Below are positions 7,111 to 34,506 of a stretch of DNA of 37,105 nucleotides, one piece after another (positions within the stretch are counted from its first letter, which is position 1; each line of letters opens with the position of its first letter). This stretch comes from Chloroflexota bacterium (GTDB lineage: Bacteria; Chloroflexota; UBA11872; VXOZ01): assembly GCA_028874195.1 (NCBI GenBank), contig JAPPLM010000075.1:1-37105 (forward strand). Direction: 5' to 3'. The notes below the pieces were generated by a model, which saw nothing but the letters and a program-made list of their open reading frames with translations, was not told the origin of the DNA and ran no database searches. The translations under genes were made by a program, and so were the position numbers.

Positions 7111-7207
7111 ACGAGTCTTCCAAAGGTATCGCGCGCATAAGCCACGTTATTGGCAACACGTAGTAGCCAACTCTTCGCCCACAATGATGTTCACTACTCG
7201 CGGCGAG

Positions 7208-7233
7208 GAGCGGGGGACAAGCCCCCGCGCTAC
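7208..7233 (+). repeat. GAGCGGGGG-type palindrome, copy 1
   Basis: A 26 bp unit built on GCGGGGG-ACAAG-CCCCCGC. Identical copies lie at 8619-8644 and 35766-35791, and a reverse copy with one difference near 33164-33189. All are intergenic. A perfect 7 bp stem could form in RNA or single-stranded DNA. Confidence 0.85.
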
Positions 7234-7245
7234 GGCAGAGCGACC

Positions 7246-7270
7246 GTCATTCCCGCGCACGCGGGAATCC
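7246..7270 (+). repeat. GTCATTCCCGCG/GCGGGAATCC palindrome, copy 1
   Basis: A 25 bp unit whose arms GATTCCCGC and GCGGGAATC-like sequences face each other. A second near-identical copy lies inside the start of modB (20693-20717). Partial copies flank two of the miniature elements. Confidence 0.8.
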
Positions 7271-8356: not shown

Positions 8357-8667
8357 CGAAAGGTCTCCTGTATTCCTTGGATGTGAAGTTCAATTATATT
8401 CTACTACTGGAAGATTCCAGCAGTATGCTCACCGTCGCAACCACTCCCAGTCCACCACCGCAGCGATCCGCGCCTCCGCCGCCAGTGTTTCAGGGCGCCA
8501 GCAACAAGGACCCGCCGCTGACGGTCAACCCGTCTCGCGCCGCATACCGCCCCTGACAGCCGAAGAGTGTCTTGCCCCTTTTGGACCTCTCAACGAGCAG
8601 TTCATCATTCGTGACAAGGAGCGGGGGACAAGCCCCCGCGCTACTGCCTGGCGTCCGTCATTCCCCC
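8357..8667. other. Intergenic stretch with a short coding-like fragment
   Basis: On the minus strand a frame of about 55 codons ends at the TGA at 8429-8431 (last residues AVVDWEWLRR). It has no plausible start and no match I recognise, so it may be the 3' end of a lost gene. It is followed on the + side by the second GAGCGGGGG palindrome and a truncated GTCATTCCC repeat that abuts the miniature element. Confidence 0.35.
8619..8644 (+). repeat. GAGCGGGGG-type palindrome, copy 2
   Basis: This is identical over 26 bp to the copies at 7208 and 35766. It lies 24 bp before the first miniature inverted-repeat element. Confidence 0.85.
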
Positions 8668-8917
8668 TGTAGATGTCAGGTAATTCGTTGACAGAATCTC
8701 CCTTTCATCGGACAGTGGGACAGTTCATGTCATTTCGAGCGCAGCGAGAAATCTAGGGCCATGCTGTACGCAGCCTAATGGGATCAACACTAGATTCCGC
8801 GCTCTTAGCGACACTCCGCTACGCTCCGTTCGGAATGACATGTTATGTAGTCAAGAGCCACGCGAAAGCCACCGATTATTTCTACCAAATCTGTCAACGA
8901 ATTACTCAACACTTACA
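8668..8917 (+). mobile_element. Miniature inverted-repeat element, copy A (250 bp)
   Basis: The terminal inverted repeats are 26 bp (8668-8693 and 8892-8917) and match at 21 of 26 positions; the inner 14 bases GTAATTCGTTGACA are perfect. A second, inner pair of arms starts with GTCATTTCGAGCG (8729) and ends with GTTCGGAATGAC (to 8839). No open frame is credible. Copy B (11910-12161) shares the ends and a nearly identical ~50 bp central block. The GTCATTCC repeat directly before it and CCCGCG directly after suggest insertion into that repeat. It is presumably moved by a transposase encoded elsewhere. Confidence 0.8.
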
Positions 8918-9072
8918 ATCCCGCGTAAGCTCGCCCCCGCCCGGGGGCGCGGAATCCATTCTCTCTCCGTCCTTTTGCAGACTACCTGCATTTGCGGAAC
9001 TGGTCGACATACAACCCCGCGCTGTGCCAAGCGCCTCGCCCAAGATGATACTCATCTGATCGCATTGGCGCC

Positions 9073-10344
9073 TTAGCGCCTTGGGCCGCTGGCGAGACGG
9101 AGCGGCTGCCAGCGCAGGTACGTCAGCGTGCGCCAGAGCCATTCCACCGGGCCGAACTGGAATCTTCCCATCCACCACATGCTCAACGGTATCTGAGCGA
9201 TAAAGATGACAAGCGTGAGCAGCAAGCCGAGTGCAGGCCCAACCTGTCCGAAAAGGCCGAAACCGTAGCCATAGAAGATGGTCGTGGCAACCAGAGATTG
9301 CAGCAGGTAGTTGGTCAGTGCCATGCGCCCCACCGCGGCCAGCGGACCCAGCCGCGCCCGCCAGGCGTCATGTTGCAGCAGCAGAGTCAGCCCGGCGATG
9401 TAACTGAGCGCGAGCGCCGGCGAGCCAAGCGTGCGCGCAGTGTCGGCGATCAAGTCGAGCCAGGTTGGCAGGGCAAGCTCTGGTCCGTGGCTCACCATCG
9501 CGTGGGCAAGATTACCGCTCACCCCTAGCGCAAGACCCCACCAGAATAGCTTTCTGAGCAGTGGCGTGTGCGCCGAGATGTTCTGAAGCATGCCGCGGCG
9601 ACCGACGTAGAGGCCGAGGAGAAACATGCCGAAGGCATTGAAGGCCAGGAAGATGGCGACGCTATACATCAAGCGCAGGTCGCTCAGCCGCTGGAGAGTG
9701 ATCTCAGCAAATGATCCGGTAGCGTAGACGAGTGCGGCCTGCGTTGCATCGGCGCGCAGCCCCACCTCCGATTCGGCAAAGCTTGCGCTAACCTCGGCTG
9801 CGCCGGCAGGGGTGAGTTTTGCGAGCAAAGCCAAGCCGCTGAGACCGACAGGCAACAAGACGGATATCGCCAGAAAGACTCCTGTCCATATCAGGAGGGT
9901 CCGTGGCGAGCGTTTGCGAAAGAAGAGCAAGAGAATTGCACCGAGCAGAGCATAGAGCACCAGAATGTCTCCCACCCAGATGAAGACGGCGTGCGCCGCG
10001 CCAATGAGCAAGAGTATGAACAGCCGTCGTAGATAGAACGGCACAAAGCGCGTACCGCGTGCCTCAGCGCGCTGTATCTGCAGGGCAAATCCCAAACCGA
10101 AGAGAAACGAGAAGATCGGATAAAATTTTGACTCAGCGAAAACCTGAATTCCCCAAGCAGCGATGCGATCGATTAGCGGCCCACTCTCTTCGCTCCCGAT
10201 GAGCAACTCCTGCGCCGGAAAACCGAAAAGGTGCATATTTACCAGCAATATGCCGAAGAGGGCGAATCCCCGCAAAATGTCTATGCTTGGTATACGCTTC
10301 GAAAGAGGTACTGGCCCTCCCCTCTCGACCGCCGGGTCGTTCAC
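9073..10344 (-). CDS. DUF418 / YeiB-like integral membrane protein
   Basis: This 423-residue polytopic membrane protein has about ten hydrophobic segments. It opens with RIPSIDILRGFALFGILLVNM, the signature of the YeiB/DUF418 group related to acyltransferase-3 and heparan-acetyltransferase-like proteins. The SKFYPIFSFLFGLGFALQ segment and the C-terminal DUF418 part (AVGRMALTNYLLQS, GPVEWLWRTLTY) are also present. Function is unproven; a role in acyl transfer across the membrane is proposed for relatives. The start is a GTG at 10344 with a GAAGGTAG-like ribosome site about 11 bases before; no in-frame ATG fits better. It is a monocistronic gene facing left, with miniature element A just downstream. 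Confidence 0.9.
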   Translation of the reverse strand: MNDPAVERGGPVPLSKRIPSIDILRGFALFGILLVNMHLFGFPAQELLIGSEESGPLIDRIAAWGIQVFAESKFYPIFSFLFGLGFALQIQRAEARGTRFVPFYLRRLFILLLIGAAHAVFIWVGDILVLYALLGAILLLFFRKRSPRTLLIWTGVFLAISVLLPVGLSGLALLAKLTPAGAAEVSASFAESEVGLRADATQAALVYATGSFAEITLQRLSDLRLMYSVAIFLAFNAFGMFLLGLYVGRRGMLQNISAHTPLLRKLFWWGLALGVSGNLAHAMVSHGPELALPTWLDLIADTARTLGSPALALSYIAGLTLLLQHDAWRARLGPLAAVGRMALTNYLLQSLVATTIFYGYGFGLFGQVGPALGLLLTLVIFIAQIPLSMWWMGRFQFGPVEWLWRTLTYLRWQPLRLASGPRR

Positions 10345-10823
10345 CGTTTGTTTCTACCTTCCATGCAAAGTCACACGTTTTACGCTACGTTCGGCACACT
10401 ACCAGCGCACAGCGACATGCGCCGATTGCTTCACTAGCCGTTTCTGCACCCGCTTCCGCAGGCATCACTGACGAAAGCCATCACGTCTCCGTGTGGGTCG
10501 CGCGCTCTCCTATCTGCGCACAGGCATTGTAGCGGGTTTTATGAGTCTATTTGGTATGATCCAGTGAGAGCGCAGTGAATTATCCTATCTTCTCTATCTT
10601 GCATGTATTCTCCTATTCGGGGTGCTGTGGACGCTCTAACCGAGTCAGGCACAGCTATGGCAGTGGGAGTAGCCACTTCTTCATCAAGCGAAGCGCCCCT
10701 CCGCAAGAAACGCGCCAGTTTGTGCCTTCATCCGTCATCATAGAGAAGAGACAGCATAACAATAGCCTGGAATTGTGAATAAAATATGAATTCCGTGCAG
10801 GAATGAATAAGGAGTCGACTGCG
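10345..10823. other. Long divergent intergenic region
   Basis: This lies between the YeiB-like gene (leftward) and a small unknown gene (rightward). It is less GC-rich than its surroundings in its right half. I looked for tRNA, SRP RNA and riboswitch signatures and found none. AAGGAG precedes the ATG at 10824. Confidence 0.45.
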
Positions 10824-11126
10824 ATGGATATAGAGGTCAAGCCACGTGCCGTGCCCAAGGAGGTGGACAACCTGCTCAAAGGCATGGCCGCGGAACTGCC
10901 GCCGGGCGCGGCGGCCATGATGCTGTCGAATGTTGCCAATCGCGCGACGGCGGTTCTGCACAAGCTGGCGCGCGAACAAGGCAACGCGACCAAGGGTCAG
11001 CCGAATTGGGGCCGCTGGGCCAGCCTCACCAACGTCTCCCGCGACGCCGTGTTGCGTACTGCCACCTGCCGCGATACCGCGACGCAACTCTATCAGCAGG
11101 AAGCTGCGCAGGAGACCGAGGGCTAA
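10824..11126 (+). CDS. Small conserved-looking hypothetical protein
   Basis: I do not recognise this 100-residue protein. It is predicted to be soluble and mostly helical: an N-terminal charged segment with VPKEVDNLLKGMAAEL, an Ala/Met-rich helix (GAAAMMLSNVANRATAVLHKLARE), then NWGRWASLTNVSRDAVLRTATCRDT and an acidic tail. I chose the ATG at 10824, which has AAGGAG 9 bases before it; an in-frame ATG at 10803 has no such site. Codon composition (G/C at third positions) supports real coding. It precedes rpsT by about 330 bp in the same direction, but no link is implied. Confidence 0.55.
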   Translation: MDIEVKPRAVPKEVDNLLKGMAAELPPGAAAMMLSNVANRATAVLHKLAREQGNATKGQPNWGRWASLTNVSRDAVLRTATCRDTATQLYQQEAAQETEG

Positions 11127-11457
11127 GGAGGGCATAGTACACGTATGTTCGCGCTCGTGCGGTGTGCTCTGGGCGAATTTGCCGGGTAAGCGGGTGTGGA
11201 AGTGGACTGGTGTGTGGCAGGTACAAGCCCCGCCTGCACTTCGACCCTTCGACCGGCTCAGGACAGGCAAGCTCAGTGCGAACGGAGTTGTGGCACTTGA
11301 GCGGGGTCGCGACTACTGTCACAGCGGCGTGCTCGGGCGAGTACCGCCGAGGCAATACGCAGGTCTGGGCATGGCGCTGCGGAAGTTGGTATAATGGGCG
11401 CAATGAGCGTAATAGTCCGCCGCACCATGGTGCAGAGAGCCGAGGAGACGCGAGAAA
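11127..11457. other. Gap with TTCGAC-type palindromic repeat, upstream of rpsT
   Basis: Around 11237-11285 lies a copy of the repeat carrying CTTCGACCGGCTCAGGACAG and GTGCGAACGG; relatives are at 18417, 19649 and 35699. The region ends with the probable rpsT promoter. No gene is supported. Confidence 0.5.
11366..11395 (+). promoter_or_regulatory. Probable rpsT promoter
   Basis: A perfect TATAAT is at 11390-11395, with a weak -35 candidate TGGGCA at 11366-11371 (spacer 18). It lies about 60 bases before the rpsT start, a normal leader length. S20 is autoregulated in E. coli through its leader; no comparable structure could be judged here. Confidence 0.5.
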
Positions 11458-11724
11458 TTGCCCAAGAAACGTGCAGACCTCAAGCGAGCCCGCCGTCAGG
11501 AAGAGCGGCGCCTGCGCAATCGTTCCGTGCGCAGCAGCTTGAAGACTTATAGCCGCAAAGCCTCCGACGCGATTGCGGATGGCGACCAGGAAACGGCGCA
11601 GGAAGCGGTAGCCTTGGCATGCGCCCGCTACGACCGCGCCGCCCGCAAAGGCATTATCCATATCAACAACGCCGCCAGGCATAAGTCCCAACTCACGCGC
11701 CAGTTCAATCAGGCCTTTAGTTGA
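11458..11724 (+). CDS. rpsT: 30S ribosomal protein S20
   Basis: This 88-residue basic helical protein binds 16S rRNA early in 30S assembly. The sequence is typical: an Arg/Lys-rich first helix (KKRADLKRARRQEERRLRNRSVRSSLKTY), a middle helix, and the C-terminal KGIIHINNAARHKSQLTRQFN, which matches the family signature KGxIHKNxAARKKSRL. The start is TTG at 11458, since no ATG exists in frame nearby; a GAGGAG site sits about 11 bases before it. A strong terminator follows 49 bp after the stop. The facing gene across the repeat-rich gap is holA, a neighbour of rpsT in many bacteria. Confidence 0.97.
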   Translation: MPKKRADLKRARRQEERRLRNRSVRSSLKTYSRKASDAIADGDQETAQEAVALACARYDRAARKGIIHINNAARHKSQLTRQFNQAFS

Positions 11725-11772
11725 GAAAGGCTACGTAAGCCGGGCCGCGCACAATCGGTCTTGAAAATAACG

Positions 11773-11811
11773 CCTCGCGCTAACCGATCTACGGATAGCG
11801 CGAGGTTTTTT
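11773..11811 (+). terminator. Rho-independent terminator of rpsT
   Basis: A perfect 10 bp stem is formed by CCTCGCGCTA (11773-11782) and TAGCGCGAGG (11796-11805), with an inner CCG/CGG extension, followed by six T residues (11806-11811). It is ideally placed downstream of rpsT. Confidence 0.93.
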
Positions 11812-11909
11812 CTATAGCTCCACCCCAGAATCCGGTGACACCGGCAAGAGACCTGATTGATGTTGCTATAGAACCAAGAAAGCGGCGATTCCTAGGATTC
11901 GTCATTCCC

Positions 11910-12161
11910 TGTAAATGTTGAGTAATTCGTTGACAGTATCTCCTGTCCACTAGACAGTCTTGACAGCTTATGTCATTCCGAGCGGAGCGAGGAATCTAGT
12001 GCCATTCTCTACGCAGCCTGTAGCCCCAGCACCCGAGATTCCGCGCTCTTAGCGACACTCCGCTACGCTCCGTTCGAAATGACATGTGATGTGGTCATAC
12101 ATGACGTTGAAACCGCCGATAATTCCTAGCAAAAGTGTCAACGAATTACCTGACATCTACA
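11910..12161 (+). mobile_element. Miniature inverted-repeat element, copy B (252 bp)
   Basis: The terminal inverted repeats are 26 bp (11910-11935 and 12136-12161) and match at 22 of 26 positions. The right end, read inward, is identical to the left end of copy A. The internal arms GTCATTCCGAGCGGAGCGAG and CGTTCGAAATGAC fold back on each other. Immediately left is CGTCATTCCC and immediately right is ATTTTCCGCG, the two halves of the common short palindrome. No coding capacity is seen. Confidence 0.8.
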
Positions 12162-34283: not shown

Positions 34284-34506
34284 TGTAGTTTTGACTAATT
34301 CGTTGACAAAATCAGCCATCTGTACACCTGCCTGCATGAGCCATGTCATTCCGAGCGGAGCGAGGAATCTGGAGTCTACGTTCCACGTAGCTGGATTGTC
34401 TAAGGACTCTAGATTCCTCGCTCCGCTGCGCTTCGCTCGGAATGACAGAAACTGCCAACGCTCTCTAGCAACAAGAGACTCTGTCATGAATTTGTCAAGA
34501 CTTACA
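34284..34506 (+). mobile_element. Miniature inverted-repeat element, copy C (223 bp, diverged)
   Basis: The left end (34284-34308, containing TAATTCGTTGACA) and right end (34482-34506, containing GAATTTGTCAAGACTTACA) are imperfect inverted repeats like those of copies A and B. The inner arms are a strong fold-back: GTCATTCCGAGCGGAGCGAG (34345 on) and CTCGCTCCGCTGCGCTTCGC to CGGAATGAC. It fills most of the 293 bp between the ABC ATPase and permease genes. No open frame is credible. Confidence 0.7.

Follow-up and report, generated by a model that had tools for sequence, protein, structure and literature searches.

We are highly confident that elements A and B, two sequences of about 250 bp in the window (the whole 37,105-nucleotide stretch of Chloroflexota DNA analysed here), are miniature inverted-repeat elements (MITEs) that carry the ends of an IS481-like insertion sequence (IS), lack a transposase gene and would be served by a transposase acting in trans. 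This reading of the sequence is based on the shared ends, the existence of a transposase-bearing element, the copy number, the 5-bp duplications, the target preference and an exact empty site.

Structure of the two elements

The coordinates of A and B, fixed to the exact base by their TGT...ACA ends, are given in Table 1. The first-pass annotation, made from the letters alone, had described two closely matched elements, and they are real: with lengths of 250 and 252 bp, they are identical in 197 of 253 aligned columns. As it had also reported, the left end of A recurs, read inward, as the right end of B (26 nt, 100% complementary), and each element contains a second fold-back. Its description of common 26-bp ends stands insofar as both elements are bounded by inverted repeats of about 26 bp; it needs a minor correction for the two ends within one element, which are not identical, complementarity being 82% (over 28 nt) in A and 85% (over 26 nt) in B. 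Two types of end exist in the family, TGTARRTGTCAGG... and TGTAARTGTTGAG..., and A has them the other way round with respect to its inner sequence. Between copies that are nearly identical elsewhere, in two unrelated genomes, the terminal ~12 nt of both ends can likewise be exchanged or have become alike (examples are both ends of A, L016:1780-2029 and L214:1501-1667), which suggests tip exchange across the common 14-nt core.

Both elements fold far more strongly than their dinucleotide shuffles (z -5.7 for A and -6.0 for B, none of 200 shuffles equalling either). There is no plausible gene within A or B, in agreement with the annotated lack of coding capacity, and an Rfam scan of the window gave zero matches. 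The rpsT and holA-like genes beside B were named from their translations. Two further dispersed repeats were noticed in the window: GGAGCGGGGGACAAGCCCCCGCGCTAC...GTCATTCCC at 8600-8665, directly beside A, and again at 7189-7254 (83%); and CTTCGACCCTTCGACCGGCTCAGGACAGGCAAGCTCAGTGCGAACGG at 11233-11287, which is found in other genomes of the genus too.

Table 1. Positions of the MITE copies and their parts in the window.
Feature	Position	Strand	Remarks
MITE copy A	8668..8917		250 bp
A left terminal inverted repeat, CAGG-type tip	8668..8693	+	
A internal dispersed hairpin repeat (GTCATTTCGAGCGCAGCGAGAAATCTAG ... CGTTCGGAATGAC)	8726..8842		arms 8726-8746 and 8822-8842; common to the family
A right terminal inverted repeat, TGAG-type tip	8892..8917	-	
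Target-type GTCATTCCC adjoining A	8657..8665	+	duplication decayed, 3/5 match (CCCCC / ATCCC)
MITE copy B	11910..12161		252 bp; the flanking rpsT and holA-like genes are convergent
B left terminal inverted repeat	11910..11935	+	
B internal dispersed hairpin repeat	11969..12086		arms ~11969-11989/12066-12086; from the family alignment
B right terminal inverted repeat	12136..12161	-	exact reverse complement of the A left end
Target-type GTCATTCCC adjoining B	11901..11909	+	duplication gone, 1/5
Third MITE of the family, decayed	34284..34506		left end, hairpin and mutated right end; flanks GGAAT / GGCAT

Copies and distribution

Copy counts were drawn from searches and from selected genome stretches. 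Element A used as a query gave 73 matches in its own genome. With up to three mismatches allowed, the end motif occurs 60 times in the host genome and 124 times in the sister species G002, the four remaining species of the genus having 3-9 occurrences each, so that the further copies proposed for search are there; elsewhere in the class, one weak match was obtained among 35 genomes. Of 400 genomes from the phylum, 9 contain the exact 16-nt core of the end: all six genomes of the genus, and three more that gave a single match each. We catalogued 51 two-ended elements, one of them a full IS, and 48 of the 51 measure 200-292 bp.

An IS481-like element with the same ends

The first-pass annotation had suggested looking for a longer, transposase-encoding element bounded by these ends, and one was found in G002. 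This complete insertion sequence of 1,099 bp (L093:768-1866) has the MITE ends, lacks the central hairpin and contains one transposase gene (348 aa). The protein matches Pfam rve_3 (E 5.7e-22), and its best NCBIfam match is IS481 (E 1.9e-53), with 181.8 bits against an NCBI cut-off of 224. Residues D169, D249 and E291 of the rve-type core, invariant in three homologues, are candidate DDE residues whose catalytic role is assigned by motif. A search of solved structures returned remote integrase and IS5376 matches only. The full transposase copy of G002 (L093:808-1854, the only one there) carries two short in-frame insertions compared with its relatives and may be impaired, though G002 holds the most MITEs of the genomes. 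In a genome scan, relatives were detected on an uncultured Dehalococcoidia chromosome (with two copies, the best segment reaching 71%) and in a Nitrospirales, a Chloroflexota and a deltaproteobacterial assembly, and the same end motif lies near them.

In the window's genome, the transposase was seen as a C-terminal fragment only, with no intact gene assembled, and a search of that genome for PF00665 gave none, a result consistent with full IS copies left unassembled. Sixteen of its contigs break just inside IS-type ends, eight per end type, which is what about eight full, unassembled IS copies would give; the genome probably has that many. The inner sequences at these broken ends are GATTTTGCAGGGCTTGAA for the first type and GATTTGGGAGAATGAGCA for the second, C32 and C39, which stop just 4 nt beyond the repeat, being assigned to the first type by their tip. 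The first-type inner sequence codes for the transposase C-terminus (..YLLYYNTARPHQGLKGHTPIQALQNLSTN), whose stop codon falls within the terminal repeat.

Half a MITE adjoins at least 3 of the 16 contig ends that carry IS sequence. The flanks at the C13 and C73 contig ends match the left part of a MITE up to position 70 and the right part down to position 66, the matches being to two different reference MITE copies and the pairing presumptive; if both flank one IS copy, the ATTCC common to them would be the 5-bp duplication. C64 likewise ends in a MITE half. Many breaks in the assembly of this genome are attributable to the IS/MITE pair.

The central hairpin and the origin of the MITEs

In the window's genus, the MITEs consist of the ends and short spacers around a copy of a dispersed hairpin. 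The interior is GTCATTCCGAGCGNAGCGAGGAATCTAG...CGTTCGGAATGAC in most of them and CGTCATTCCCG...CTGGACTCCGGCG...GCCGGAGTGACGG in a second subfamily (L036, L038, L040) with the same ends. Short and long forms of the central hairpin arms are mixed across copies, the insert being GTCGAACCCTGTTCG, its variant with an inverted loop (GTCGAACAGGGTTCG) or GCGCTCTTAGCGAC. The first hairpin is an independent repeat, since it is plentiful, too, in a second genus of the class in which the MITE ends were not found.

That same distribution is what could be said for the central GTCATTCC hairpin being itself the mobile unit, REPIN-like and with its own enzyme, the outer ends then being incidental repeats. We consider this very unlikely: the 5-bp duplication described below sits immediately outside TGT...ACA, the second subfamily combines a different central repeat with the same ends, and the ends occur on the transposase-bearing element without the hairpin, so that for the 250-bp unit the idea is already contradicted.

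Deletion of the middle of an IS with retention of both ends is the usual way in which a MITE is born. A series of IS derivatives is present on the finished chromosome OY282355.1 of an uncultured Dehalococcoidia (stretches L125, L126, L208, L213 and L214), which has two IS copies of 1,049 bp together with derivatives of 778, 557 and 167 bp. The two full copies have the same end motif, the same target and exact 5-bp GGAAT/ATTCC duplications, and the 167-bp derivative keeps both IS ends with the middle deleted. These size-graded derivatives (1049, 778, 557 and 167 bp) offer a ready series for studies of MITE birth. For the MITEs of the window's genus, we infer an origin by capture of the target hairpin between IS ends.

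Insertion sites

An exact 5-bp match between the two flanks was observed for 21 of the 51 two-ended elements, and shifting the register by 1-4 nt reduced this number to 0-1. The duplications are mostly ATTCC; GCACC and ATTGA were also seen. When flank pairs were reshuffled (2,000 shuffles), a mean of 7.8 of 51 matched, with a maximum of 16, as compared with the 21 observed; reshuffled pairs match this often because most flanks are ATTCC. The duplications other than ATTCC (GCACC and ATTGA), together with the empty site, are therefore the stronger evidence for duplication. As for the target, GTCATTCC adjoins 43 of the 51 elements when one mismatch and a distance of up to 3 nt are allowed, the background being 0.4% of window positions. 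The preferred target is ATTCC within GTCATTCC, at the start of the dispersed hairpin repeats, and when the flanks of all elements were joined in search of interrupted MITEs, the join rebuilt a dispersed hairpin in three cases.

Empty sites, whose comparison in related strains the first-pass annotation had recommended, do exist. For the copy flanked by GCACC, G004 has the exact empty site, in which GCACC stands only once, and another copy has a contiguous element-free match in G005. The orthologous rpsT-holA interval lacks element B in four sister species (G001, G002, G004 and G005; G003 was left out of this comparison, the two genes being on separate contigs), and G004 and G005 do not have the region of A either. 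For A and B themselves, the sister species gave absence and no exact empty site, since the intergenic DNA around them has diverged beyond alignment. Because their duplications have decayed, A and B are probably older insertions. Copies, empty sites and a transposase-bearing element that shares the ends having all been found, the identification of A and B as non-autonomous elements is borne out, and the copies are neither confined to the two first seen nor restricted to orthologous positions.

That the copies spread through recombination or as parts of duplicated chromosomal segments, and not by transposition, is extremely unlikely. Several flanks do have rearranged repeat arms, with GTCATTCC on both sides, and end tips have been exchanged between copies, which means that recombination among copies does occur. 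Nevertheless, each site has independent flanks, 5-bp duplications are present and the ends are common to the transposase element; recombination as the main route is refuted by the copy with duplicated GCACC, whose empty site has GCACC just once. Finally, the strong fold and the intergenic positions could fit regulatory or RNA hairpins conserved because they function where they stand, a notion to which we give almost no credence given that no Rfam match was obtained and that B is missing at the orthologous position in four sister species.

Mechanism and comparison with known systems

Mobilisation in trans by the IS481-like transposase is thus, as judged from the sequences, the most likely route for the MITEs. 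A DDE-class transposase encoded by the IS would recognise their ~26-bp ends (TGTARRTGTNRRSTAATTCGTTGACA) in trans and join them to the target, generating a 5-bp duplication. The preferred landing site is ATTCC inside GTCATTCC, the first bases of the scattered hairpin repeats, and, the MITE interior being a copy of such a hairpin, each MITE brings a new preferred target with it. That MITEs carry their own preferred landing site is mildly unusual. They might even be self-seeding, the spread of the target hairpin providing more landing sites and leading to nested insertions, as where IS-bearing contig ends adjoin half a MITE; we raise this tentatively and regard it as rather doubtful. If true, it would constitute a positive feedback that also spares genes. 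The family is a clear example of an IS landing in dispersed hairpin repeats and not in genes; the GTCATTCC repeats are present in several of the genera searched, and in the window's genus they serve as both target and MITE cargo.

The open-access literature (ISfinder being outside the scope of the search) contained no description of this MITE/IS family, and no match for the hairpin sequence or for an IS481-linked MITE with this target. IS-derived MITEs are well known as a kind, and this IS and MITE pair is apparently undescribed so far.

TGT...ACA ends occur in bacterial members of the IS481 family. For eukaryotic members such ends are stated in the literature, which gives duplications of 2-15 bp for the family and lengths including 5 or 6 bp for the IS1202 group (PMC10045372). 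The IS described here resembles the IS481 family, including the IS1202 group, in its DDE transposase with IS481 as best NCBIfam match, its TGT...ACA ends, its length of ~1.05-1.1 kb with a single gene and a 5-bp duplication falling within that 2-15 bp range. It differs in scoring under the curated IS481 cut-off, in duplicating 5 bp where most IS481 members duplicate 6 bp and in strongly preferring ATTCC within dispersed GTCATTCC hairpins. Among MITEs, MITECca01 of Cardinium is derived from IS982 and is 240 bp long (PMC9769881). Like the MITEs of the window (~250 bp), it is short, gene-less, bounded by the ends of its parental IS, multi-copy and lineage-restricted; in contrast, it belongs to another IS family, and the MITEs described here have as their interior a dispersed hairpin of the host in which the IS's own target lies. 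Dispersed repeats of the neisserial dRS3 type (ATTCCC...GGGAAT) are insertion targets of mobile DNA. The likeness to the present system lies in the use of a short palindromic dispersed repeat as a landing site, whereas the hosts and the mobile element are different.
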